Positions 5,271 to 55,611 of a stretch of 64,000 bases of DNA are shown in pieces. Location of the stretch: contig OY783205.1 of assembly GCA_963678705.1 (NCBI GenBank), forward strand, positions 2,604,001 through 2,668,000, written 5' to 3'. A model generated the notes under the pieces. That model did no database searches. It saw nothing but the letters and a program-made list of their open reading frames with translations, and had not been told where the DNA came from. Origin of the DNA: Panorpa germanica. Taxonomy: Eukaryota; Arthropoda; Insecta; Mecoptera; Panorpidae. Numbering within the stretch: the first letter of the stretch is position 1; every line of letters starts with the position of its first letter. A program made the position numbers and the translations under genes.

Positions 5271-5657
5271 TGACGTGCATGACGTGACGTGATGTGCATG
5301 ACGTGACGTGCATGACGTGACGTGCATGACGTGACGTGCATGACGTGACGTGCATGACGTGACGTGCATGACGTGACGTGCATGACGTGACGTGCATGAC
5401 GTGACGTGCATGACGTGACGTGCGTGACGTGACGTGCATGACGTGACGTGCGTGACGTGACGTGACGTACATGACGTGACGTGCGTGACGTGCATGACGT
5501 GACGTGCATGACGTGACGTGCATGACGTGACGTGCATGACGTGACGTGCATGACGTGACGTGCATGACGTGACGTGCATGACGTGACGTGCATGACGTGA
5601 CGTGCATGACGTGACGTGCATGACGTGACGTGCATAACGTGACATACATGACGTGAC
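5271..5657. repeat. 14-bp CpG-rich minisatellite (TGACGTGACGTGCA)n, ~28 copies
   Basis: About 28 tandem copies of the 14-mer TGACGTGACGTGCA with a few point variants (GCGTG, GATGTG, GTACATG) and short register changes near 5455-5490. Each unit holds two CpGs and two ACGTG cores within strongly AT-rich surroundings. The minus strand is open in all three frames. Because 14 is not a multiple of three, every frame encodes the same 14-residue cycle, rich in His, Val, Thr, Ser, Cys and Arg. On the plus strand every frame meets TGA. I treat it as noncoding satellite DNA; the long minus-strand frames are a by-product of the repeat. Confidence 0.95.
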
Positions 5658-6099
5658 AGTGCATCTTGTACAGTCTTATGACTTCAAGTCTTACTACTAA
5701 AGCACCATTACTGAATTAATATAATTAGTTCCCAGTAGATGACCCCAAAGATCTAGATAAGATCCACAACAGGGATGGCCAATACTAAAAACACAATTGT
5801 GCACGTAAAAGTAAACTTTTAAATACAAAACCTAATATTTAATATTGAACGTAGTAACAAATACAACAAATTTTTACTTAAAAGTCATCGACTTGTATTT
5901 AAGATTATAAATACTGTAAGCACAGAAATAAACGCCACTCTGTTGACAATTTAGCAACCGCATCTGCCTGTCGAAGCTGTGAAAGCAGTGCTTGCCTAAA
6001 TCAGCAAATACAGCACCTAACTGTGTGCTTGACGTCAACCTTCTGTATTTTCGTGTTAGATTCTCGTGTCAGCGCTATATTTTCTGCATTTGGTTTTTA
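5658..6099. other. Intergenic stretch, nothing recognised
   Basis: No open frame, terminal repeat or RNA gene can be supported here. Confidence 0.4.
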
Positions 6100-11867: not shown

Positions 11868-14329
11868 TATAATATAAGTAATATTAAAAATAATTTGACT
11901 TTGGAACAAAAAATAGTTTACCTTGAACTTTATTTTAATTTTTCACTACGTAACAATACATACATATATGTATGTGCTAATTTTTAAGTATATAGGTGTG
12001 TCAACAAACATCTAAATGTATACATAACTTGTGCCAAATCAATTCCATTACTATATTTTCTGTAAATAAATCAGTGAAAGTAATTAAGTAAATAAATAAT
12101 TTATTATATGTTATTATAAGACAATGTTTTATTTCTGTTTTGTTTTATTATTCGTATTGTTTGTCTCTTTCTACAGGTTAACGTTGCACTACATCAAATG
12201 AAATGGAAATAGAGCGAACTAGATTCAAAACCGGTAAAATACTTACTTTAACGAAAGCTAGTGATTTGAAAGTTGGCTTTATATAGCTTCATATAACTGG
12301 CAGGACACATTAGTGTCATTATCAAAATCCATCATCCTCCTAAAACCTTAAAGCTAAAACACTAATAAACCCGAGCCTATCCGCAAAATAAAATCACCAA
12401 TTATATAAATCAGTCAATTATATAAAATTAAAATTAAGAATCAGTGCCAGATTTGGAGGAGTAGAGGCACTGGAACAACGGATTGAAGGCCCCTAATTAT
12501 TTTCCTAATAAAAGGAACAAATTTTTTCCGTCAAGTCTTTCAAAAATTTATTGCTTGCCACAATAGAGATTGTGGAGGTCCCGGGGCAGTAGCTCCGCCT
12601 GCCCTCCCTCAAAGAGTTAAATTAAAACTTCCCACTGTTACCAAAAAAGACCTTGCTCGTGATTCACCGGTTCGCGTAGGACCTAATCCATACTTCTATC
12701 GAGCTCTCACTCATGCAATGTTTTTAATATTGCTGTCGTTCATTATTCATTGTACTCTAATGTTTCTCTGGTTACCGAAGATAGAAATAGCTCCCAATGG
12801 CAAGCGACTTTTACATCAAACAAAGAATTTAGCAACATTTTTTAAGGATTATCTTTCAGTTTAGGTAATTTTCTGAAACAAATAATATTCAAAATCTTTC
12901 CTTGCAATTGTGATTTGTAAAAAAAATTGTAATTTCGAAGGCACAAAGGCCAGGAGTTTATGCCTTGAAAATAGATGGCGCTGAAGCGTTATGCCTATAC
13001 TCAGCCTTTAAGGCAAGTAAAGTATTTATAGCTTGCATAATAAGAAGGGCCTGGTCGTGAGACTATCTGGCGTCACCATACAGTTATTCTTCGAAGCAAC
13101 CTCGTTGAAAATCCCACCGGTAAGTCATTTACGCAACTAAGCAGAGATACCACTAAGAACCGATGTGGTCATTGCATACGCTTTTCGGCTCACTTCTCCT
13201 CTCGTCTATATTTAGATAAATCCAATGCGTTTGATGTAGAATCCACACGAACGTTGATCTTAATAAATTCTTCTACAAAAGTCAGATACGTACGAGTCTG
13301 TAAAATATGAGGTTTTAGTGGATATAATAAAAGCTATATACTCGTGCATAAGTAATTTGTATATAAAATCCATATATTATATTCTATGTGTATGTGTGTG
13401 TTTGTGGTGTATACGTATACACAACACTTGTTTATCCTTTAATGCCATCTTCATAAGGTATTTCAGTATTTCCTGAAATTTCATAAACTTACCCCAAGTC
13501 CTAAACAAGAGAATATTTCACGGAAACTTACTTTGAGATTGTAATCCGGGAGGTTTATGGAAGTGTAAGGGACAGGGAGGTATTCTCTCTCTCCTTCCTG
13601 TCTTCCTAGTGCTGGTATCCCTGTCTTCCTGTCTTCCGATGTCCCCATTTTGCAGTAGATGCCGTACACTCCACTGACAACGAGTTTGTAGTCGGGAGGT
13701 TTCCTGTGTTTAGATAATCACTGACAGTTCTAAAATGGTTCTAAATTTTCATGATAAAATACAGGGTGGGCTACGGGGTTTCGATCATTTTTAAGAAACG
13801 GGAAATAATTTATTTTTGTTTGAAATAACTTTGTTAGAATTAACACAGGTTAATTGGTCGAAACTAGTGAACAACGATGTAAGAATGTCGACAAGGAACA
13901 CTTGAACCGATAGCGAACGTCTTTTGGGTGTTCCAGCGTGGTATAGTACAGCCAGAACATGTACTATTATTTGAAAACCTGCACACGAATACGTTGGTAT
14001 TTTATTATTTTGATATAAGCCATGTTATTGTCTAATTAGCCTCATCATGCGTGAGAACCTGGACTGGAAATTATGTAAGTTATTAGAATGGGATTAAATT
14101 AGATATAAGTTGAGTATTTAAAAAGTTATTAATATGGCGGCTTTTGCCGAGGGTAAAAATTGTGTTAGTTCTTAATTTACAATTTGAATAAAAAAAAGTC
14201 CTACTTTTAAAAAAATAGTTAGACAAATAACGGATATGATTTGAAAACTAAAAATATTTTAAGATTGGACCTGTTATCAAGAGTACATTCTGTAGAAAAC
14301 TATATTTAGGAAAAATAGTAAAAATACTC
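11868..14329. other. Long gene-free stretch
   Basis: No gene is recognised. A block at 12440-12640 (GGGGCAGTAGCTCCGCCTGC) and a CAGGGTGGGCTACGGGGT motif at 13762 resemble transposon ends, but no partner repeat was found. At 13540-13690 there is a short CT-rich region with repeated CCTGTCTTCC. Its 62-codon minus frame is low in complexity and not recognised. Confidence 0.4.
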
Positions 14330-31640: not shown

Positions 31641-32094
31641 AATGCATCTAAATATGGATTAAAATACATTTACAAATACGGTAACATGATTATACATGAA
31701 TAGATTCATGTTGAATTTAATTGGACACGATGAAATTTGCACTCATCTTAACAAATGTAATTATTACAAGTAATCTAAGAAGAATGCATTGCTTAGCGGC
31801 ATATACATTGATAATAACTTTTCGAACAAATGCATTGCACTGGAAACAAATGAAGTTTCGGAAAATCTGTATATGTTGTATTTACATGCAACGGTACTGT
31901 TGCATTTTCTTTTGAGTAACCTTTTATTTTTTTTACGTAAAAGTCCGATAAAAATGTTATTTGCATCCTCCCTACAGCTACATAAAGTAGGTGCAGTTGC
32001 TTAAATGTTCTTAAATCCCCGCTAGTGGTTGAGAAGCACTGGTATAATTTGATAAATCAAATCTATATTTATTATTATATTTATTTGGCTTATT
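31641..32094. other. Intergenic stretch, nothing recognised
   Basis: Two short overlapping plus frames (64 and 71 codons) resemble nothing known to me. No other feature. Confidence 0.35.
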
Positions 32095-32460
32095 CAATTG
32101 ACATATTTGTTCATATAGCCGTACACATTTTTTAATTATTTTATCTTACATTTTGTTAATCTTATTTACCTATATATGATAAGTGAATATCAATTGACAT
32201 ATTTGTTCATATAGCCGTACACATTTTTTAATTATTTTATCTTACATTTTGTTAATCTTATTTACCTAATCAATTGACATATTTGTTCATATAGCCGTAC
32301 ACATTTTTTAATTATTTTATCTTACATTTTGTTAATCTTATTTACCTATATATGATAAGTGAATATCAATTGACATATTTGTTCATATAGCCGTACACAT
32401 TTTTTAATTATTTTATCTTACATTTTGTTAATCTTATTTACCTATATATGATAAGTGAAT
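32095..32460. repeat. 96-bp tandem repeat, four copies
   Basis: Units start CAATTGACATATTTGTTC at 32095, 32191, 32271 and 32367. Lengths are 96, 80, 96 and 94 bp; the second lacks the 16-bp TATATATGATAAGTGA part. Units are otherwise almost identical. The last unit is interrupted at its end by a LINE insertion. Confidence 0.95.
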
Positions 32461-35667: not shown

Positions 35668-36303
35668 GAAAAAAAAAGAACAACAAATAAGCTTGTGGCT
35701 GGGTTGCATAAGGAACATGAATAGAGAGAAAGTACTAAAAGAGGCAGTGAAGGGAAGCAAGAGAAAGAAACAAGTAGCGAGGAAACAGTTAAACTTCAGT
35801 TCAGAAAAAGTGAGGATTTTCGGAAAGGAGAAAAGGACAACAGGTAGATGACGGAGATAGAGATAATAATAACATAGTAAAGGTAAAGAGTCAAGAAGAA
35901 AGAGTAAAGTAAGAGAGTCAAGAGGAAATAGTAAAGATAGAGCGGTTATGCCGGTAATAGACATAAGTGGAGAAGTGAAAACGAAGAGAGAAGGCAGGAA
36001 GGATAGTGAAAAGATAATAGAGGGTTTGTCGAGAGGAGACAAGGAAGGCAAGAGGTGATAGATGAAGATACAGGCAATAAGGAAGGAGAAGCAGGGAACG
36101 GTGTGAATAAAGGAGGAGTAGGGGACACGAAGAGAGAGGATCAAGAAAAGAAGAAACAGAAAGTACTATTCGAAGTAGTAATAGTTTAGAATAGTTTAAG
36201 TTTTTTTTTTTTAACTTTGAATTTATATGAAATGCATTAAGAAATATAATAATGTAGATTGTAAAGCCGAAAGGCACACAATTAATATAATATAAATAAA
36301 AAA
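35668..36303 (+). mobile_element. 5'-truncated LINE of the purine-rich family
   Basis: Flanked by a 16-bp target duplication ATATAGTTTCTTTAAA (35652-35667 and 36304-36319). The plus strand is purine-rich and matches the 4.6-4.8-kb relic. The 3' end GTAAAGCCGAAAGGCACAC precedes an A-rich tail and resembles the end of the 49-kb copy (GTAAGGCCAAAAAGACATA on its minus strand). It has no intact frame. Confidence 0.85.
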
Positions 36304-36319
36304 ATATAGTTTCTTTAAA

Positions 36320-37845
36320 ACTATAAATCGGATTAGGCCTGTCTCACACGGTAACAGACTACTTGCAACGACAAGTTTTTAAGTCGGGTATATTAGAGTC
36401 TTTTCGCATTAGTACACTTTATCAGGAGATGAACCTTCTATTTTAATGTTTATTACCACTATAGTGACAGTACTGTGCATCAGTATCGTTTGCCTCTCAC
36501 ACTTTCACCCCTACTATATTATTTTATTATTTAGAATTTGAGGCGATTTCAACATCAAGGTCATTCTCACCTGAAGTTATTTTATTTTGCATCAATTTTA
36601 CTATCAATTAGGAATATGTCATGCATGTTACGTATCGTCATCTGTTGAACAGCCCGCCTCCGTTCCTGCTCCGTTTGAGTGTGTACCTAAGTTGTTTATT
36701 AGTTTTGCGAATGTTGTTTTCATTTTACTGCTCTGTAGTTTGGGATATAGAAACCGTAGGGCACTAGCAATATCTACTGTGCTTTTCGCATAAGTTTTCG
36801 AGTATTTAATTATTTCGTTTTTCCATTGTGAGTCTTATATGAACTTTTTAGGTTATTAAAATCCATTATGTATTTCTTTGGGTTTTTGTTATTTGTCTTT
36901 TAGGAGCTACAACTCTACATCTATTTCGGATAAATTTCTGGATTGCTACTGGGTTTCTTCTTTTTCGAACATGATTTTTTAGGAACAATGGTCTGATTTT
37001 TAGTCATATGATTTATTTCTGTTGTTTTTATTTCTAAGGGGCTAGTATCCAACTCAGATGACAAGGAAATTGGCCATTTGAAATCTGGATGGATTTCTAT
37101 TTGCGATTTCGTCGAAAACCGTTAGTCGAAAAAAAAAGAGATTTATCTCGTGACTTTATGATTTTGGTTCACGTGGATTTGCAGTCACATATTTCTCAAA
37201 AATCGTTAGTCGTTCGGGAAATAGTCATAAATAAATGTTATATGCATGTTTAGATTTTAATAAATCCATATCTAGTCGCAGACATGTGTGATTTTAATAA
37301 ATCTAAAACTTTTGCATATCTCGTAATAATGTTACGCAAGATCAATAAATAAAATAATTTTTTTCTGGGATTCTCCGATTTTAATGAAATGGCAAGCGCT
37401 AACAAAATGTAACTTTAGAAATAATTACCGCTCTGATATATATAAATTAATAAATAAAATATTTTGTGGACATAGTCCCCAAGATACCCAAATGTCAAAA
37501 AATTTATTTGAGTTTCTATACTTAATGTGTTACTATTTTTTTATAAATATATTAAACTACCTAAGTGAATACGCAGTATTGACAGAGCATGTGGATGTAT
37601 TAAGAACCTCTTCCAACAAATATCACGTAACTGCCGCTCTGGTGTGGACGACGCATTAGAACGCAAACGTTATCATTATCACGGAATATATATTATCTGT
37701 TGCGCAGCTGTTGGTTGTCCAGTACGCTCCCAATTAATTTAACAACTTTAATAACGTTGTACCTTTCATTTGAAACGTTTCTTAAACCAAGGTTTGTATT
37801 TACCGTTCTTTAATTTCAATACTGTATGTCAAGGGAATTATAACA
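36320..37845. other. 5' flank of the caspase A/B gene
   Basis: No coding frame is supported. The last ~230 bp resemble the region before exon 1 of the second locus (50430-50647): shared GGTGTGGACGACGCATTA, GTACGCTCCCA and TTTGTATTTAC(C/T)GTTCTTTAATTTCAATACT. Because both lie directly upstream of an exon, promoter or 5' UTR sequence is the likely reason. No clear TATA box was chosen. Confidence 0.5.
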
Positions 37846-40800
37846 ATGGCGGAAAGCAGTGTAGATGGCAGTTCTTTTCACGGCCCAATCACGTAAGTAC
37901 CGAAATAATTATTCAATAACCAGAAAATAACTTATGCACTGTAAAAAAGCTAATAGACATGGGAAGGTAAATACAATTAGAAAGTTTTTTTACAATTTTA
38001 CGATTTTAATAACCGCAAAACAGGTCATTTACCATCATATTTAGATAATATTTTTTATGTGAGAGAAAACTTATGTTTTACGCAAAAAACCTATGTATGT
38101 TTAGTACTTAGCGACACATTAGAAAGTATTATTTCATTAAAATTTTAGCAATATTCAGAGCTTAGATCATAAGGACTGTTTTTTTTTCTTTTGTTACCAA
38201 GAAACACAGTGGTCATTTGCGTGCAAGTTAACATACGATTACGTAATACTTTATATCTTTGTTATATTTACTTAATATAAAGGCAATGAACTCATTATTT
38301 ACATCTACTATGAATGGTGAATTGAAATATTAAATAATTCTAATATTATGTTGACTCAAATAACAAATAACTTTTAACGCATTTCAACATAAACAAAAAG
38401 TCAGCATAAATACATTTGTTTGAGACCATTCCAGTTAATCTCTAGAATAACACCACAATAGCTGTACGTGTTATTTTGATTCAGTAATAGTCAATTTTTA
38501 TCGCATCTATTGACATTGCCACAAATTAGATTTAAGAAACAAAAGTCGAAAAAGACACAAAAGCACAAAGTGCAAAAGAAACAAACAAAAGTGTTGATTC
38601 ACAAAACAAGAAAGATTCAAAAACGAAACAAGTAAAAAATAAAGATTAACAAATAAATTAGAAATTAGTGTATTAAAATAATCAACCAACTAACAATTAA
38701 TATTAACGTCTTACATAAATATATAATAATCAAAACTAACATGAAACAAGTGTAACTTAGCATTTGAATTTATTAAATAAAATACAGTTTTTTAAATATT
38801 TGTTTTCATTCTAATACTAATGTCAACAAATACTAACAACCTATAAACAACGACGGTCACGATATATGAACTAGCACAACGTTCTTAAAATTACGACTGA
38901 ATAAATATATAATATAAAGTAAATTAATCTACTAAAATATAAATTTGTTAATATTTTCGGCTCTCAGAAAATATATAACTTGCACATACGAGCACGTATG
39001 TATGGAGGGCCGCTGATGGTAGCCAATAATATCGGAATGAAAGATAATAAGCTGATATTTTGCATAAACCTTTGTTTTGACTAAAACTAGGAAGTCTCAT
39101 ATAATCTTGTGCCCAAGTCATAAGACATGCAGAAAAAATGCATTCGATCAAATTCGTAGAGAACTTTATGACTACAAGTTTCTTAATAACTTAGGTTGGT
39201 ATCACGTAACCGTGAGGTGAGACACTACAGGGACCGAAAGCTTTTAAGCTTTGTTACACTGCTGTATCTTTGGGCTCGATCCGCAGACCAGCGCTACCAT
39301 TACTAAGTTTGGTTGTTACCAAAATAAATTTGATTATGGGCTCATAATCACTGATTAGGCAGCGGTGTAGTTTACACATGTAAGACAGGACACCGTAAAT
39401 ACTGCTTACACTATAGAAAGTTGTCGACGATAGGACTCAGTTTCAGAAATAATATGATCTCAAATCAAATGTCCATAAAATAGCGAGGGTAAATATTGAC
39501 AAACCTGACTCCTTTTTGTTTTCAAAAAAATATTATGATAAGATAACTAGATATAAAAAATTAAACCAAACAGAATACTAGAATAACTAAACATTAAAAA
39601 ATCATCGAATATTGAAATTATTACTTAAAATCGATGTGGTTGCTGCGACCACAAAATTATTTCTCCTGTTGCTTTCACAATTTTGTGCTAAACAAGCCAT
39701 CGTTCGATAGTTCTTGAGTTTCCTGGGATACTCGCTGAAAGTAACAGGAAAGTTTTCCAAGGAAACTTTACCTAAAACTGGCCTGGGTTAAGAGTCGGGT
39801 CGGTGATGTTGTCTAGACTAGATGCAGTCCACAATTTCGTTAGGTAACAAATTCCCGAATTCCATTCTTCGCTAGCATGTGGACTCAGTAAATATTTAAT
39901 TATGTAATATTTCAGCCTCTTGTTGTGTAGGATGTTAAAGGATCACACAGTTTGTTTAAAACATTTATTTAATAAAATAATAACGATGATAATAATACAA
40001 TAAGGTTACAATATAAACGTTGGTATTTGCTTTACGAATACTGAACAATGAATGAACACTCTATCTTAATGTTTACTAAACTTAGTTCTTACGTTAATCT
40101 TAGCTTGATTTAACCGCTTCATTTTTATTACTTTAAGAATGCACTTAGTCCGCAGTGGCTAGCAATTTTGCTAAGCACCACACATAATCCTTGTTTTGAC
40201 CTTTACTAATCACATTATTTTACGACTTGCATTGTTTACTATCCCGAGTATTATAATAACGCTCACTTTGTATGCCGGATTCGTTCTTATTCATCCACAT
40301 AAATATATCAAGTAATATCCGCATTTTGTCCAGGGCAACGCCGCCGAGTGGAAACTCTGTCGTGGTATCGGATTATTACAACATGAAACGTAAGCGAACA
40401 GGTGTGGCGCTCATTTTCAATCATTACCAATTCACGAACGGTTTGCCAGTTCGAGAAGGCACAGAGGACGATGTTAGTGCTTTACAAGACACTCTTCCAT
40501 GTTTTGGTTTTGAAGTAAGGATATTTAACGACAGGACCAAAGAAGAAATTATGCAAGAAATAAAAAAAGGTACTTTTATTAATGCTGAATCTTGTTAGTT
40601 TTAACCACGTACGATGTTTGCAATTTATTTTAAATTTATAGTCTGCGCAGAAGATCACTCAGATGCGTCTTGTATAGCAGTTATTGTTCTGAGTCACGGC
40701 GGAAGAAATCATCTGTACGCATATGATGAAAATTACCATGTAGAAGATCTATGGTCACCTATTACTAGTAAGACGTTTTTGTGATATGTCATCTAATCAT

Positions 40801-41839
40801 TGTAATTCTCCTTAGGCTCGTGTTAAATTTGTTAAAGACGATGAAATTCTGTGCTCTAAATTTTTTCGTAAATTACTCCGACTACCATTTGTCGTATCTG
40901 GAATATTCTTATTTTGTCTACGCAAGCTGAACTTAGTCAACGATAGTACAATGCCAATGAAAACAGCAATTGTTTTGTATTTAGTGGTAAACTAATTCAA
41001 TTTCCTCAACGGACATCTTTTAATTGGTATGATGTTTGATGGATTCAGGTATTACTGAAACTATTAGGCAAGTTTTTTTGGTGTTAGCAAATAATTGACT
41101 AAAGTTCTATTTCTGCGACATCCAACAATAAGAGTTTGAACCCGCTCTATATTCTAACGGGTACATTCTCTTAGTTCCTTCAATAGTAGTATCTTTACCC
41201 ACTTCTGCTCTTTCAAATACCATGTCAATCTTTAAACTTCGAGAATCGGGAACAACTGCGATCCGGAGTCTTTTAAACAATATGGGTATGTTTCTTTTCA
41301 GAAAATATTAGTTTGTTTTTTCATGAATAATTATTATAGAGTGCTCCTCCTTGGCTGGGAAACCGAAACTCTTTTTCTTTCAAGCCTGCAGAGGAAATGA
41401 TTCCGATGATGGAATTTATGCTCATGATGCTGATGAAAAAGAACCGTTTTTTACCATTCCTTCAATGGCAGATGTTGTTCTCGCGTATTCCACTGTAGAC
41501 GGTAAATAATCTGAATGTCTTTCACTTAACAATTTATTTAGCGAGGGACTGTAAAGTGATCATATATTTACGAAAATGCTTACATGTTCTATAACTAATA
41601 GATATTGTTTTCCAGGGTACAGAGCGCTAAGATATCCAGCTGATAGCAAATTGAAAGGTTCTCCATTTATTCAAGATCTTTGTAAAGCATTGAAAGAGAA
41701 AGGAGGGTCTTTGCATTTCGAGGAATTAATGGTTCATGTTAGACAAAAGGTAGCTGTTGACTTTGTTGGATTTGATAAAACCAAGCAAGTCCCGCAAACG
41801 AATTCTACATTGACCAAACTCTTCAAATTCATTCCGTAA
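37846..41839 (+). CDS. Caspase A (effector-type), five exons, 264 aa
   Basis: Caspases are Asp-specific cysteine proteases that execute apoptosis. Exons: 37846-37892, 40334-40569, 40642-40767, 41340-41501, 41616-41839. All introns are GT-AG, phases agree, and the total is 795 nt. Exon 1 codes only MAESSVDGSSFHGPI plus two bases, so the prodomain is short, as in effector caspases. The p20 part has the substrate Arg in VREGTEDD, His113 in VLSHGG and Cys153 in FFQACRG. The p10 part keeps the P1-binding Arg in ALRYP, but the usual Trp before it is Leu and the GSWFIQ motif is GSPFIQ, so specificity may differ. Asp-rich DSDDG/HDADE between p20 and p10 is a plausible cleavage linker. It ends STLTKLFKFIP with TAA at 41837. 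The start is the ATG that begins a frame splicing cleanly into exon 2. Intron 1 (2.4 kb) holds a 740-bp repeat and a SINE. Confidence 0.88.
38226..38965 (+). repeat. 740-bp repeat, uninterrupted copy in caspase intron 1
   Basis: Inverted relative to the split copy at 20570-29803. It has no coding frame. It is useful because it gives the target sequences before the Copia and nuclease-transposon insertions. Boundaries are approximate, set where similarity fades. Confidence 0.75.
39195..39400 (+). repeat. tRNA-derived SINE in caspase intron 1
   Basis: The B-box-like GGGCTCGATCC near 39272 is followed by AGACCAGCGCTACCATTACT and AAGTTTGGTTGTTACC, matching the 6.5-kb copy, and then the tail with GGCAGCGGTGTAGTTTACAC. 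The A box is weak. The rest of the intron to 40333 (about 930 bp) holds nothing I recognise. Confidence 0.6.
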
Positions 41840-42449
41840 GTTTTACTATAGATATATTTATTAGTTTACTGATGAAGACGAATGTTTGCATTGCTTTCAT
41901 CCCGTCAGTCAGTAAAGCACTTTTTAAAATGAAATTCACTTTTCCTTGGTGGCACCCCGAACATCATTTACGAAGGCAATTTCATATGGATTGGAACCAA
42001 TCGTCAGTAGATGCAATTTCGCTTGGGAGCTAAAACAAGGAAAGCCCCGATCGGCATTACATTCGCTTCGGCACAGTTTGGAATTATTTATACTATTGGT
42101 GGCATATGGGTTTCAATGTGTAACACTGTAACATCATGAGGCGGCGACTTATATTACCTTGAGACAGTGTTGTTAGTATTACCTATAATATTACGACTTA
42201 TTAAAAATGTATTGGTCCTGATAGCCAACTTAAACCAGATTTGTTTTGAAAACAAATTATTATGTATTAGTCAATGATATTTGAATATTTTACATTTAAT
42301 TATTGATATTGAAAAATGGAAAATGTGTTTGATGTCATAAAATAATAAAACTTAACCTTGAGTAAAATACCACATGAAGTTATCTTATGTATTTAGCTAA
42401 TGTTTATAGATTAATAAGAAACTAAGATAAACAAATGAATTATTCTTAG

Positions 42450-44630
42450 GGTAACTGACAATGTTCGAAGTGCACTGTATGAAAGAGTAACAAAGGTTCA
42501 GAGAAGTTCTAATGAAATTAAAGAAAATAAACCAAGTCCAGAACTATTAAATAAATATAGTGCTAATCCTGAGACTCTAACTAAAAAGATAGATTCACCT
42601 CTTTACAAAATGAATCATCCAAAAAGAGGAGAAGCTTTAATATTTAGTCACAAAGAATTTACAATTCGAAGACTTACTCCAAGATTCGGAACAGAAGTCG
42701 ATGAGAAGAATTTAAAAACAACATTAGAAAAATTAAAATTCAATGTAACGATTCATAAAGATTTAACTAAAGCTGAGATAAAGGAGACGATAAAAGCAGG
42801 TAAACATTGGATGCAGTTCTTTAAATGTGAGTGTAAAGGTAATGATTTCAATTGTTACAGCTGCTGAGAAAGACTATACGGACTGTGATTGCATCATGAT
42901 TGTGGTAATGACCCATGGAACAGACAATAATAGGATTTACGCCAAGGACGATCTTTATTCAGTTGATGATTTATGGAAACCGTTTACTGGTAAGGATAAC
43001 TAACAAGAGTTAGTTAACATGAGACACTGCTTCCTAAAATGTGATAATCTATATTCATAGTTTAGCGTTTTGGTTTGTATCGCCTGTAACTTTCATAATA
43101 GCGGTATATGTATGTATGTTATTCTCGTAATGGTTTTTGTCTTTCTATATAATATATTATATAACCTTACTCTAACAAAATTAACAATTAATTCAATTAA
43201 ACTTACAAATTATACTTAAACTTTAACTTCGTCGCTTCCATTTTCTACTTTTTCATCCACCTCTTTCCTATGACGCTCTTTTAAACCGCTACTTTATCTC
43301 TTTCACCTCTTCTATAATAACCTAGATAGAAATATTCCAGAAATTCCTATCCTTGACCATACTACTTTGCAATGTCCTCTTTCCCACTAATTTCTACCAC
43401 TATGAGCTGGTGAACATATTTTATTTAAACATATATGATATAATTATGAATTAATGACATCTCTTTCTTCTTCTCCTCTTGCCCACTCTCTTTGTCCTCT
43501 ATTTCATCAGTTTCTTTCTTCTTCTTCCTCTTTATGTGTTCGACTTGCACTGCCTCTTTGGAACAATTGCTCTATTTTCTTTTTACATTTTATTTAAAAT
43601 TTCCACTCACTTTTGACTTGTCTTTGTCTTGACTTGTCTTTCTTTCCACACACAGTATTCTGTGTCTAACACTCATCATTTCTTCTTTTGTCCCTCTCTT
43701 GCCTTACCCATACTCTCAGCCTCACTTACACCTACATTTCCTTCCTTATTGGGTCCTGTTTTATTAAGATTTCCCTACGCGTGAACTTGTTTTCACCCTT
43801 AATAGCTTAAATACCGGTACAAAATAGACAAACCATGTGACAACAGGGAAGTTCTCTCAACGAGGTATTTAGTGAATTGTGCCATCTATAACTGTACAGC
43901 GAATCACGTGAAACTTTCTTAAACGGTTGACGGGTTATAACGAACATCAAATTAACGTTATATTCCATAGTAACTCTAAATAACGTTATTTTACCGTTTG
44001 GTTCTTATAAAAATAAATGTACATAATTACTATTCAGTAATGTACCAAATTCTTTTTATGTAACTTATAATATTTTTATGTAAAATATACCTGATATATA
44101 CATAACTATCTTTACTCGGTATAATAGTTCCATATTTCTAAATTATTTTAGGTAGAAAGGCACCATCTTTGGTAGGCAAACCGAAATTATTCTTTGTGCA
44201 GGCGTGTAGAGGAAGTGCTAGAGATCCTGCAAGCCTTGCATACATTGATGGAGACGACCTCCAAGTGTACACCATTCCATCTATGGCGGATGTTTTAGTG
44301 ATGTACGCCACCGTTGAAGGTATTTCATATTCTCTGCTTTGTTAAATCGAAACGAACATTCGACATTAAATACAAGAATGCAATTCATTTATAGGTTACG
44401 TATCATATAGGAATCCGGAAAAAGGAACTGTATTCATACAGGTAATTTGTAACGAGTTTAATAAGAATGCTAAGAAAGTGCATTTGGAAAACATGTTGGT
44501 GAATATCAAACGAAAAGTGGCTATAGATTTCGCTGATTCATTATCACTTGGCGAGTATATAGTTATCAAACAAATGCCCCAACTATACTCAACTTTGACA
44601 CGGTTCGTTTTCTTTCGAGATAAACATTAA
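42450..44630 (+). CDS. Caspase B catalytic exons
   Basis: Exons: 42450-42799, 42861-42989, 44152-44319, 44395-44630, with a 61-bp first intron, all GT-AG. There is no local start codon before the prodomain; the first exon opens at an acceptor (TTCTTAG) with the frame VTDNVRSALYERV. Exon 1 of caspase A (37846-37892) ends in the same phase, giving a 309-aa protein if spliced directly. Alternatively the caspase A end could splice in, giving a 557-aa fusion. The prodomain runs to SPLYKMNHPKRGEALIF. The substrate Arg is in PRFGTEVD. His151 lies in VMTHGT and Cys194 in FVQACRG (numbering for the exon-1 form). The p10 Arg is in VSYRNPEKG. It ends TLTRFVFFRDKH. The linker IDGDD may be the processing site. 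Translation from an internal Met (42610) would remove the prodomain. Confidence 0.85.
43230..43800 (-). pseudogene. Purine-rich LINE relic in caspase B intron 2
   Basis: CT-rich on the plus strand. Parts align with the fragment at 53640-53930 in the matching intron of caspase C (AACAATTGCTCTATTTTCT against AACAATTATTTTATTTTCT, then a TTAAA-TTNCATTCACTT phrase). The insertion therefore probably predates the caspase duplication. No usable frame. Confidence 0.5.
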
Positions 44631-44719: not shown

Positions 44720-45542
44720 GGCCTTATTCTGTATCTTTTCAAAAAATCGACCTTATTTATTCACCGGTGGAAATATTTAATTTTCTCATCCATAGAATAA
44801 GGTCGCTATATTTAACATCTCTGATGTGGTATTCTGTATGCAAAATTTTCCACGGCTTTTATAATGTACAGCAGTGAAAGAGTATAAACTGGTATTGATG
44901 ATATTTGTCCAATCACGACAAAGTATTAAATAGAAAAAATATAAAATATTTTAAATGACAGTTATTTATATAATTCATACATGTCAAAATCTATTAAAAA
45001 AAGTCAATATGGCATCTACGAAAAGAAAAACGGGAAAATCAGTGGGGAAATAATTATTATAAATAGAATTTCAAATGGCCATGCACAATTTATGCAAAAA
45101 AAAACAATTTTTTTGTAATCCCTAATTCACCTGAAGCAATAATTGACAAACAACATAACCTCACTTTCTGATATATTTATATTTTCATATGTATACAAAT
45201 TATTATATCTAGAGATAGATTGTAATATTCTGGGATGTCAATAAAAAAAAAGAAATATATATGTATACATATAAATACTAACTTATTTTGTACTTCTTCG
45301 TAGAACCCTCCAACTACAGCAAATTATAGTTCAAATTGTTTGACAGTTCTCAAAAATACAGCGATAAAAATTTTTAAAGTCAACGCTGAAGCGATCTTAT
45401 AATTTGGTCGATTTTTTTCCAGTGACAATAATAAAATCGATGAAAATTTCTTATAGAATACCAAATAAAAAATCATCGCTTTTGTGACGTCATTTTACAG
45501 CGATAAATTTTTCCGGTGGAAATACTTTACAGAATAAGGCAC
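44720..45542 (+). mobile_element. TTAA MITE, ~820 bp, downstream of caspase B
   Basis: It begins GGCCTTATTCTGTA and ends TACAGAATAAGGCAC. The right flank is TTAA (45543-45546) and the left flank is TTAC (44716-44719), a mutated copy. It is the inverted relative of 54537-55338. Internal motifs with CACCGGTG occur near both ends. A 14-codon frame MASTKRKTGKSVGK near 45009 is kept in the other copy and may be the start of a lost gene. Confidence 0.85.
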
Positions 45543-45546
45543 TTAA

Positions 45547-46430
45547 AGTAGTTGAATAGTAACAATCGCGTGCAAAGGTATAGTCAAATATAAAGTAGAA
45601 ACGTTACATACTCTCCATATGGATTAGTATTTGATTTTCGTAGAGACTGTACTCAATACATGTAATCTTTTACATACATACGTAGGGTAAATACGATGCA
45701 CTGTTGAGAAACATGGCAACGCTGTCCAGCACAATGAAACCACTGTAGTATAGAAATCTTTGCACTTTTTATACACAATATAAAGCGTTGCCCAGTTGCA
45801 ATAGTTCTTTTCACGTTCGTATTCTGTTTTAATAAAATAACTACTTTAAAGCTTTATATCATTTTTAGAAACATAATTAAATTTTATCAAATTCTGTAGA
45901 AAAGTGTTTTTACTCGTGAGATACCTTGTTGACGAATCTAATTCCTTAAAGTAAAATCTCAATTTGATGTAATATTTTGTACTTTTTTTGATTAATTGAA
46001 ATATTGTATTGTTTTGTTTATTTGTTCATTTTCTTTTATATTATTATGCTTTCTGTTATTAAATATAGTTTAGATTTGCTCTTTTGTTTTTCATATTCGG
46101 GTTTGAAGCGGTCTGTTGCAATTTCAGGCCACTTCATCTAAAGCTCTCAACCCAGCAACAAGAGCAAATTTAATTAATTTAAGAACCATCGTACTTGTAT
46201 TGTTATATGTATCCTATTATTTCAAATTGTTTGTTAATATAGTGTTAAAAAATAAAAACCCAGTATTTTTACTAAATAATAATCAAGAAAGTTCAGCGAA
46301 GGTATTTTTTTCACGAATTAAAACATCTACAACAAAACAGAACCAATCTTAATTTCTAAGAAACTAAAATGTATTGATACGAGTAAAGTTTAATATCAGG
46401 TATCAAATGTATAATTAATAATACTTCAGC
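45547..46430. other. Unmatched segment with a small ORF
   Basis: Absent from duplication copy 2. A TTTCAG acceptor-like site at 46126 precedes a 74-codon frame to 46352 with a hydrophobic segment (TIVLVLLYVSYYFKLFVNIVL), and ATTAATAAAG occurs near 46500. It could be an unrelated terminal exon or a chance frame; no family is recognised. Confidence 0.25.
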
Positions 46431-53134: not shown

Positions 53135-54209
53135 ATGGATTCACCGTTATACAAAATGAACCATCCTAGAAGAGGAGAAGTTATAATATTTAATCACGAG
53201 AAATATACAAGCCCAAGAATAAGTCCGAGAGACGGGACCCAATTTGATGAGGATAGCTTAATAAGAACCTTAAAAACCCTAAACTTCAATGTTACGGTTT
53301 ATAAAGATTTAACTAAAGATGAGATAAACACGACGATAAAAGCAGGTAAACTTAGATGCAGTTGTTTAAATGTGAGTGTGAAGGTAATGACTTCAATTGT
53401 TACAGCTGCTGTGAAAGACTACACGGACTGTGACTGTTTCATGATTGTTGTACTGACCCATGGATCGGACAATAATAAGGTTTACGCCAAGGACCAGGCC
53501 TACTCAGTGGATTATTTATGGAAATCGTTTACTGGTAAGGCTTAAGGATAACTGCCAAGAATTTCACTACATAACACTTGTAATGTACGAGTATATTATT
53601 TGAATGTGAATTATTGCACCTATATAATATAAATACAAACAAATTCTGTCCTCTACTTCTTCTTGTCTTACTCCCCTGCCATTATTTTCCATTTTCTTCT
53701 TCTCTGTGCCTTCGCGAACCACCTCCCTGTTTCAACAATTATTTTATTTTCTCATCGTTTTTTATCTTAAATTTACATTCACTTCTCATGTTCCAGCATC
53801 TCCTCTTGTTATCCGTTTTCTCTTCCTTGTCTATACCTACCCTACTTACTATGTCGTTTCTCTACTCCACACCTTGCTACTCATCCTTATTAGCTGAGTA
53901 CTCTAAAGAATCGTTATTTAGCAGTTAATCGTTATTAGAAGCAGCGTTAAGTTGTTGAAAACATGTCAACTGAATCGTTATTGCTATGTTATCGGGTATC
54001 ATATCGTTACCTTAGGGGTTCGGATAATGCTTAAAACACTTATAACATTTAAATGTACAACCTACATAATACATTACAAAAAATTATAAAAAAATTAATC
54101 AAATACCTCACATTGCATTTCTTAAATTACTGTTACTACATTTTCTTTAGATTTTACCAATGTATCAAATCTTTTTATGTAACTTATAATATTTTTATGT
54201 AAAATGTAC

Positions 54210-54296
<87 letters not shown>

Positions 54297-55611
54297 ATAT
54301 TTCATTTTTCTAAATTATTCTAGGTGATAAGGTACCATCTTTAGCAGGCAAACCGAAATTATTTTTTCTGCAAGCGTGTAGAGGACACCAGAGAGATGGA
54401 GGGAGCTATGCAACCAGTGATACTGATTATAATTATCTGCAAGTCTACACCATTCCAACTATGGCGGATGTTTTAGTGATGTACGCCACTGTGGAAGGTA
54501 TTTCACATTCTGTATTTTCTTTATGTTCGACATTAAGGGCCTTATTCTGTAAAGTATTTCCACCGGTGAAAAAATTTCATCGCTGTAAAAGGACGTCACA
54601 AAAGCGTTGATTTTTTATTTGGTATTCTGTAAGAAATTTCCATCGATTTTGTTTTCGTCGCTACAAAAAAATCGACCAAATTATAAGGTCGCCTTCAGCA
54701 GTGACTTTAAAATTTTTCATCGCTGTATTTTTGAGAACTGTCACAATTTGAACAATAATTTGCTGTAGTTGGAGGATTCTACGAAAAAATAGAAAATAAG
54801 TTAGTATTTATATGTATACATATATTTTTTATTTTTTTATTGACATTGCAATATTACAATCTATCCATAGATATAATAATATGTATACATATGAATATAT
54901 AAATATATCAGAAAGTGAGGTTATGTTGTTTGTCAATTATTGCTTCAGGTGAATGCTTTTTTACATAAATTGTGCATGGCCATTTGAAATTCTATTTATA
55001 ATAATTATTTCCCCACTGATTTTCCCGTTTTTCTTTTCGTAGATGCCATATTGACTTTTTTTAATAGATTTTGACATATAGGAATTATATAAACAACTGT
55101 CATTTAAAATATTTTATATTTTTTCCATTTAATACTTTGTCGTGATTGGTCAAATATCATCAATACCAGTTTATACTCTTTCACCGCTGTACATTATAAG
55201 GGCGGTGTAAAATTTTGCATACAGAAAACCACTTTAGATATTTTAAATACAGCGACCTTATTCTATCGATGAAAAATTTAATATTTCAACCGCTGAAAAA
55301 ATAAGATCGATTTTTTGAAAAGTTACAGAATAACGCCCTTAATATATGTATATAATTTGTTTGTAGGTTTCGTAGCACATAGGAGTAGGAGTGAAGGAAC
55401 TGTATTCATACAGGCAATTTGTAACGAGTTGAATGAGAATGCCAATAAAAGGCATTTAGAAGACATGTTGGTCAATGTGAAACGGAAAGTGGCTCTAAAA
55501 GTGTTTCCAAACGGTAAGAAACAAATGCCACAACTCAACTCAACTTTGACGCGTTACGTGTTCTTTGGAGATCAGCTGCACTTATTCCAACTTTTTGAAC
55601 ATCAGTTGTAG
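53135..55611 (+). CDS. Caspase C, prodomain-less, four exons, 252 aa
   Basis: Exons: 53135-53345, 53406-53534, 54324-54497, 55367-55611; 759 nt in frame. Paralogue of caspase B. The substrate Arg is in SPRDGTQFD, His89 in VLTHGS, Cys132 in FLQACRG, the p10 Arg in VAHRSRSEG, and the end is STLTRYVFFGDQL plus a short extension. The linker SDTDY may be the processing site. The region equivalent to the B prodomain (52945-53125) has several stops in every likely frame plus an 8-bp insertion (TGAAAAAG) just before the first usable ATG at 53135; an ATG at 53153 is the alternative. So it would be a catalytic domain without prodomain, or a young pseudogene. The 60-bp first intron has no stop and keeps frame, so retention would add 20 residues. 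Intron 3 is almost filled by a MITE. Confidence 0.78.
53640..53930 (-). pseudogene. Purine-rich LINE relic in caspase C intron 2
   Basis: CT-rich on the plus strand and placed like the 43.2-43.8-kb relic in caspase B. It has no intact frame and the plus-strand frames have low complexity. Confidence 0.45.
54213..54293. repeat. (AT)n microsatellite, ~81 bp
   Basis: Pure AT repeat in caspase C intron 2, ending 30 bp before the catalytic-Cys exon. The matching intron of caspase B has only GATATATACATAAC at this point (44093), so the array expanded after the duplication. Confidence 0.95.
54537..55338 (-). mobile_element. TTAA MITE, 802 bp, inside caspase C intron 3
   Basis: TTAA on both sides (54533-54536 and 55339-55342). 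It begins GGGCCTTATTCTGTAA and ends TTACAGAATAACGCCC. It is the reverse-orientation relative of 44720-45542 and fills most of the 869-bp intron. It is in a different position relative to the gene from the other copy, so the two insertions were independent. Confidence 0.92.

Follow-up and report, generated by a model that had tools for sequence, protein, structure and literature searches.

A candidate tandem caspase gene encoding two catalytic domains in Panorpa germanica

Gene structure and domain content of the locus

The window analyzed in this study is a 64,000-nucleotide stretch of Panorpa germanica DNA (assembly GCA_963678705.1, contig OY783205.1, positions 2,604,001 to 2,668,000 of the forward strand). 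Positions 37846-44630 of the window were modelled as a short first exon followed by the exons of two caspase domains, A and B (Table 1). GT-AG borders were found at all introns used in the gene model, and all three introns inside A are in phase 1. Among the modelled exons, only exon 1 and the end of A provide phase-2 donors upstream of B. Three joins are in frame from ATG to stop: exon 1 with A (264 aa), exon 1 directly with B (309 aa), and A with B (557 aa). Joining the exons reproduced all the exon coordinates, phases and protein lengths given in an earlier sequence-only reading of the locus, and its statement that the three totals are each divisible by three held on recomputation.

Table 1. 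Features of the putative tandem caspase gene and of caspase C, in window coordinates (a slash marks a splice border)
Feature	Position	Strand	Remarks
Exon 1	37846..37892	+	ATG, 15 codons plus 2 bases; phase-2 donor AC/GTAAGT
A, first catalytic exon	40334..40569	+	Gene model; caspase similarity
A, exon with catalytic His (SHG)	40642..40767	+	Gene model; motif
A, exon with catalytic Cys (QACRG)	41340..41501	+	Gene model; motif
A, last exon	41616..41835 (fusion); 41616-41839 if ending at TAA	+	Gene model
A-B intron	41836..42449	+	614 nt, phase 2; GTAAGT donor, TAA at 41837-41839
Poly(A)-like hexamers in A-B intron	ATTAAA 42200; AATAAA 42344		
B, first exon	42450..42799	+	Met-less N-terminal extension, then core start
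B, exon with catalytic His (THG)	42861..42989	+	Gene model; motif
B, exon with catalytic Cys (QACRG)	44152..44319	+	Gene model; motif
B, last exon, TAA stop	44395..44630	+	Gene model
Caspase C	53135..55611	+	Exons 53135-53345, 53406-53534, 54324-54497, 55367-55611; 252 aa

The Peptidase_C14 profile matched two stretches of the 557-aa protein (1.5e-111; cut-off 21.4 bits). The predicted catalytic dyads of A and B are both intact, and each domain has both arginines assigned to the aspartate-binding pocket of caspases. Among solved structures, Sf-caspase-1 (1m72) and DrICE (3sir) were the best or near-best matches of B. The same fold is expected, but Sf-caspase-1 and DrICE are single-domain proteins, and the active-site motif of A and B is QACRG, not QACQG. 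Viral contigs scanned with protein A contained no relatives.

The stop codon within the donor at the end of A

The sequence-only reading had described the end of A as a donor of the same phase as that of exon 1 that also contains the stop codon of A, and CC/GTAAGT indeed sits there, at 41834-41841. The TAA inside this donor is nothing special. Because any phase-2 intron beginning with GTAAG reads G-TAA-G, the stop in the donor is not an independent coincidence; an in-frame TAA arises from the GTAAG start in all four phase-2 introns examined, including the one after exon 1. Since a phase-2 intron that starts with GTAAGT yields this TAA when read through, no stop needs to be skipped, and the fusion would therefore be the default product. 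The earlier suggestion of a double caspase made by skipping a stop is thus retained for the two complete domains in one 557-aa frame, but not for the skipping. That A and B match in phase is probably due to inheritance, because L036 and L037, two further caspases of the genome, also have core exons behind a phase-2 acceptor (judged by eye).

The start of B and the first exon

One alternative is that the locus holds two separate genes, in which A stops at the TAA, B is transcribed from a separate promoter with a first exon to itself, and the donor is a by-product. The alignments agree with this arrangement in that the end of A is the usual end of a caspase domain. However, among 15 candidates for an own first exon of B in the spacer of 614 nt between the end of A and the B acceptor, none has a GTRAG donor, and a separate first exon of B at this place was therefore rejected.

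The frame of B is open for 53 codons from the acceptor to the first Met, which lies within the conserved YKM motif of the core; the corresponding stretch of its relative B' on another contig, C1, has 61. In 20,000 trials with random sequence of local composition, 1.9% stayed open for 53 codons and 1.2% for 60. In the caspases L031a, L031b, L036 and C, an in-frame ATG precedes the core Met by no more than 11 codons. The core exons of L037 (by eye), A and A'' (also on C1), like that of B, have no upstream Met, which weakens the missing start of B as proof of a fusion; the open frame therefore indicates an upstream exon, not a fusion by itself. The run of the B frame back into its acceptor supports the view that B would need such an exon. 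The earlier claim that B, lacking its own start, shares exon 1 consequently stood as regards the upstream exon, given the 53 Met-less codons; a direct exon1-B join is allowed by phase only.

Exon 1 is the only candidate in 36000-40250 that runs from an ATG to a phase-2 consensus donor. In random sequences of matching dinucleotide composition, such candidates occur at 1.24 per 4.25 kb, and 35% of these sequences lack them. By itself, exon 1 is unremarkable, and each single candidate is weak evidence. It gains some weight because exactly one candidate first exon was found 5' of each of the three A-type genes (the C1 scan covered about 3.4 kb) and 'aca' precedes the ATG in all three.

Another A-B pair, on contig C1

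The genome search covered 464 Mb in 249 contigs and gave at least 44 caspase matches. Among the caspase loci compared, A- and B-type exons were found in the window and on contig C1, and the latter carries two A-B pairs (L032 and L033). A' and B' follow each other on the minus strand of C1 in the same order as A and B in the window, with core identities of 57% between A and A' and 59% between B and B'. A' ends with CG/GTAAGTTTTAC and window A with CC/GTAAGTTTTAC, giving a phase-2 GTAAGT donor in both. B' begins with T-GTA-ACT-GAA (VTEE) and window B with G-GTA-ACT-GAC (VTDN), both behind a phase-2 acceptor and both reading VT[DE]. An equivalent of the window A-B junction is hence present at a second locus. 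The donor run is identical over 11 nt between the two loci; identical runs at six other homologous intron starts span 4-12 nt, so the A-B junction behaves like other introns. The A'-B' product has 602 aa and likewise contains two Peptidase_C14 stretches, and an exon1-B' product of 338 aa is also in frame. The catalytic His and Cys (S/THG, QACxG) are kept in all seven modelled A- and B-type domains. In B', the second pocket arginine is missing (VAFS).

The conserved donor argues against two separate genes, as does the intron between A' and B' (junction at L033 5400 to 5284), which at 115 nt leaves hardly any space for a gene end and a promoter. The second locus also bears on another explanation, occasional chimeric splicing of tandem duplicates that yields a fused protein without function. 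Such splicing between neighbouring duplicates is known in general, and the model presented here is drawn from genomic sequence, both of which count in favour of such chimeras. However, two loci with differences at about 40% of residues have the junction in common, and the extension of B has no start of its own; we therefore regard chimeric splicing as very improbable.

Unfused relatives

The other pair on C1, A''-B'', is different. A'' ends with a weak donor, TA/GTAATT, and joining it to the B'' acceptor would create TAA at the joined codon, so that a fusion through the end of A'' was rejected. A fusable junction is present in two of the three A-B pairs. For B'', one possible own first exon was found at 12860-12966 of the reversed C1 stretch, where about one is expected by chance.

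Caspase C, downstream in the window, is a copy of B with a 66% identical core. It has its own ATG where B has ATA, and the N-terminal extension of B is decayed or lost. C and B share two pieces of the A-B spacer (48/57 and 45/57 positions), and if the stand-alone C is expressed, this shared spacer might hold a promoter. Caspase C has apparently dropped out of the fusion and acquired its own start codon.

Several of these observations fit two separate genes: A'' has a stop and is not joinable to B''; caspase C, which has part of the spacer in common, can be read as an independent gene that starts at its own ATG; and the tandem L031b-L031a is unfused, with ordinary stops that contain no donor. 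Set against the short A'-B' intron, the conserved donor and the spacer candidates that all lack a GTRAG donor, they leave two separate genes in the window unlikely.

We consider it probable (about 0.7) that positions 37846-44630 represent one nine-exon gene, predicted to encode a 557-aa tandem caspase by ordinary splicing across A-B.

Possible alternative products

The locus might also produce several proteins by regulated splicing, namely A alone, A-B and exon1-B, which would be compatible with the fused protein as the main product. All three products are in frame, and the same three are possible at C1. To yield A alone, the A-B intron would have to be retained or a poly(A) site inside it used; this could happen because the intron holds ATTAAA and AATAAA in the window. 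However, neither hexamer occurs in the 115-nt A'-B' intron, and the exon1-B product would have to skip the four A exons and is not singled out by phase alone. The A-only and exon1-B products are possible on the gene models, but regulated production of several proteins is, on balance, doubtful.

Predicted protein and processing

Caspases act as dimers, normally of separately made chains. With two complete, unlike caspase domains on a single polypeptide, a gene would set both the partner and the ratio, and it would offer a natural test of mutual activation between such domains. In the tandem caspase proposed here, the A-B intron would usually be spliced out and the TAA with it, giving a protein in which the exon 1 residues are followed by catalytic domain A, then by a linker of about 50 residues and finally by catalytic domain B. 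We tentatively suggest that the product may be a double zymogen, with A and B made in 1:1 amounts. Cleavage might occur at aspartates inside the domains and also immediately ahead of the B core (KID/S), where it would release B. An aspartate is found directly before the core in all B-type domains compared, as K-I-D-S in B and B'', K-M-D-S in C and K-N-D in B'. The linker could let A pair with B inside one chain. These biochemical features are considerably less certain than the gene model itself.

Less probable still is a whole insect family of tethered, doubly active caspases, in which the 1:1 zymogen would form an intramolecular A-B pseudodimer with two differing active sites and be cut at the linker aspartate, and in which retention of the one intron with the stop codon in its donor would switch between single and double caspases.

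Comparison with known two-domain caspases

Two-domain caspases are already known from a coral and a mussel. According to excerpts of the report on Acropora millepora caspase-X (AmCaspase Xa-Xd; PMC4715348), several gene copies each encode a protein with two caspase domains. The likeness to the genes described here (557 and 602 aa in the gene models) lies in the two domains within one frame. However, the first domain of caspase-X is described there as having no catalytic His and Cys, whereas A of the window keeps SHG and QACRG, and caspase-X is backed by cDNA, whereas the double caspase of the window is known from gene models. In the mussel Mytilus coruscus, 4 of 47 caspase genes have two CASc domains, and the family has expanded by tandem duplication (PMC10967218); the parts of that report consulted leave unstated how the two domains of this mollusc are joined and whether they are active.

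Among insects, the Lepidoptera have tandem Caspase-1 and Caspase-2 genes and splice variants of Caspase-3 and Caspase-5, according to parts of a survey (PMC3141678). Tandem arrangement and splice variants resemble the situation here, but the lepidopteran tandem genes are separate, and intronless in H. armigera, and the outline and results of the survey contain no fused pair. Excerpts of PMC8418000, PMC7836458 and PMC12292325 contain no fused caspases. No insect double caspase was found in our literature search, which covered part of the insect genome papers and annotations. What looks new here is a predicted insect tandem caspase with both domains apparently active.

Relationships and history of the family

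A tree was calculated from 14 caspase domains, with L034/L035 and L038-L041 left out and the L036 row (own_L036) lacking part of the domain. Among these 14, A, A' and A'' form one group (95/91) and B, C, B' and B'' another (100/99). The two types together (99/99) lie outside the insect effector caspases of the set; L031a, L031b, Sf-caspase-1 and DrICE form a separate group (93/93) that includes neither type. On this tree, the A and B types predate the two loci. A' is closest to window A (99/97), whereas B' is closest to its C1 neighbour B'' (99/96). Because the trees of the two halves conflict in detail, one joint duplication of A and B is too simple an account, and besides pair copying, gene conversion or repeated exchange between the C1 neighbours is likely. 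The locus also illustrates a likely way for tandem duplicates to become one gene, by means of a phase-2 intron that spans the end of copy one. Pairwise dN/dS was 0.14-0.45 in seven of the eight pairs and saturated in the eighth, these values being rough.

Other observations in the window and genome

An element of about 0.8 kb occurs twice in the window, in opposite orientations and with 89.6% identity, at 44720-45549 (downstream of B) and at 54530-55337 (in the last intron of C), and is probably a mobile element. Repeats were found at window positions 5285-5664 and 32094-32460, the former being 27 tandem copies of a 14-bp unit and the latter nested perfect repeats of 80, 96 and 176 bp.

Two further caspase regions lie on contig C10. 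The unfused tandem pair L031, at about 13.49-13.50 Mb, resembles Sf-caspase-1 (QACQG), and L034 and L035, at about 6.29-6.30 Mb, are diverged caspase-like copies arranged in an array, with an intron that appears to interrupt the active-site motif (Q/ACRG). Contig C249 is the mitochondrial contig, with 16,386 bases and the tRNA order I-Q-M. A lepidopteran origin, suggested by the caspases, was rejected on this ground, the order of ditrysian Lepidoptera being M-I-Q; the COI protein seems beetle-like. Nineteen of the 20 COX1 matches lie outside C249, and those on nuclear contigs are probably nuclear copies of mitochondrial DNA.
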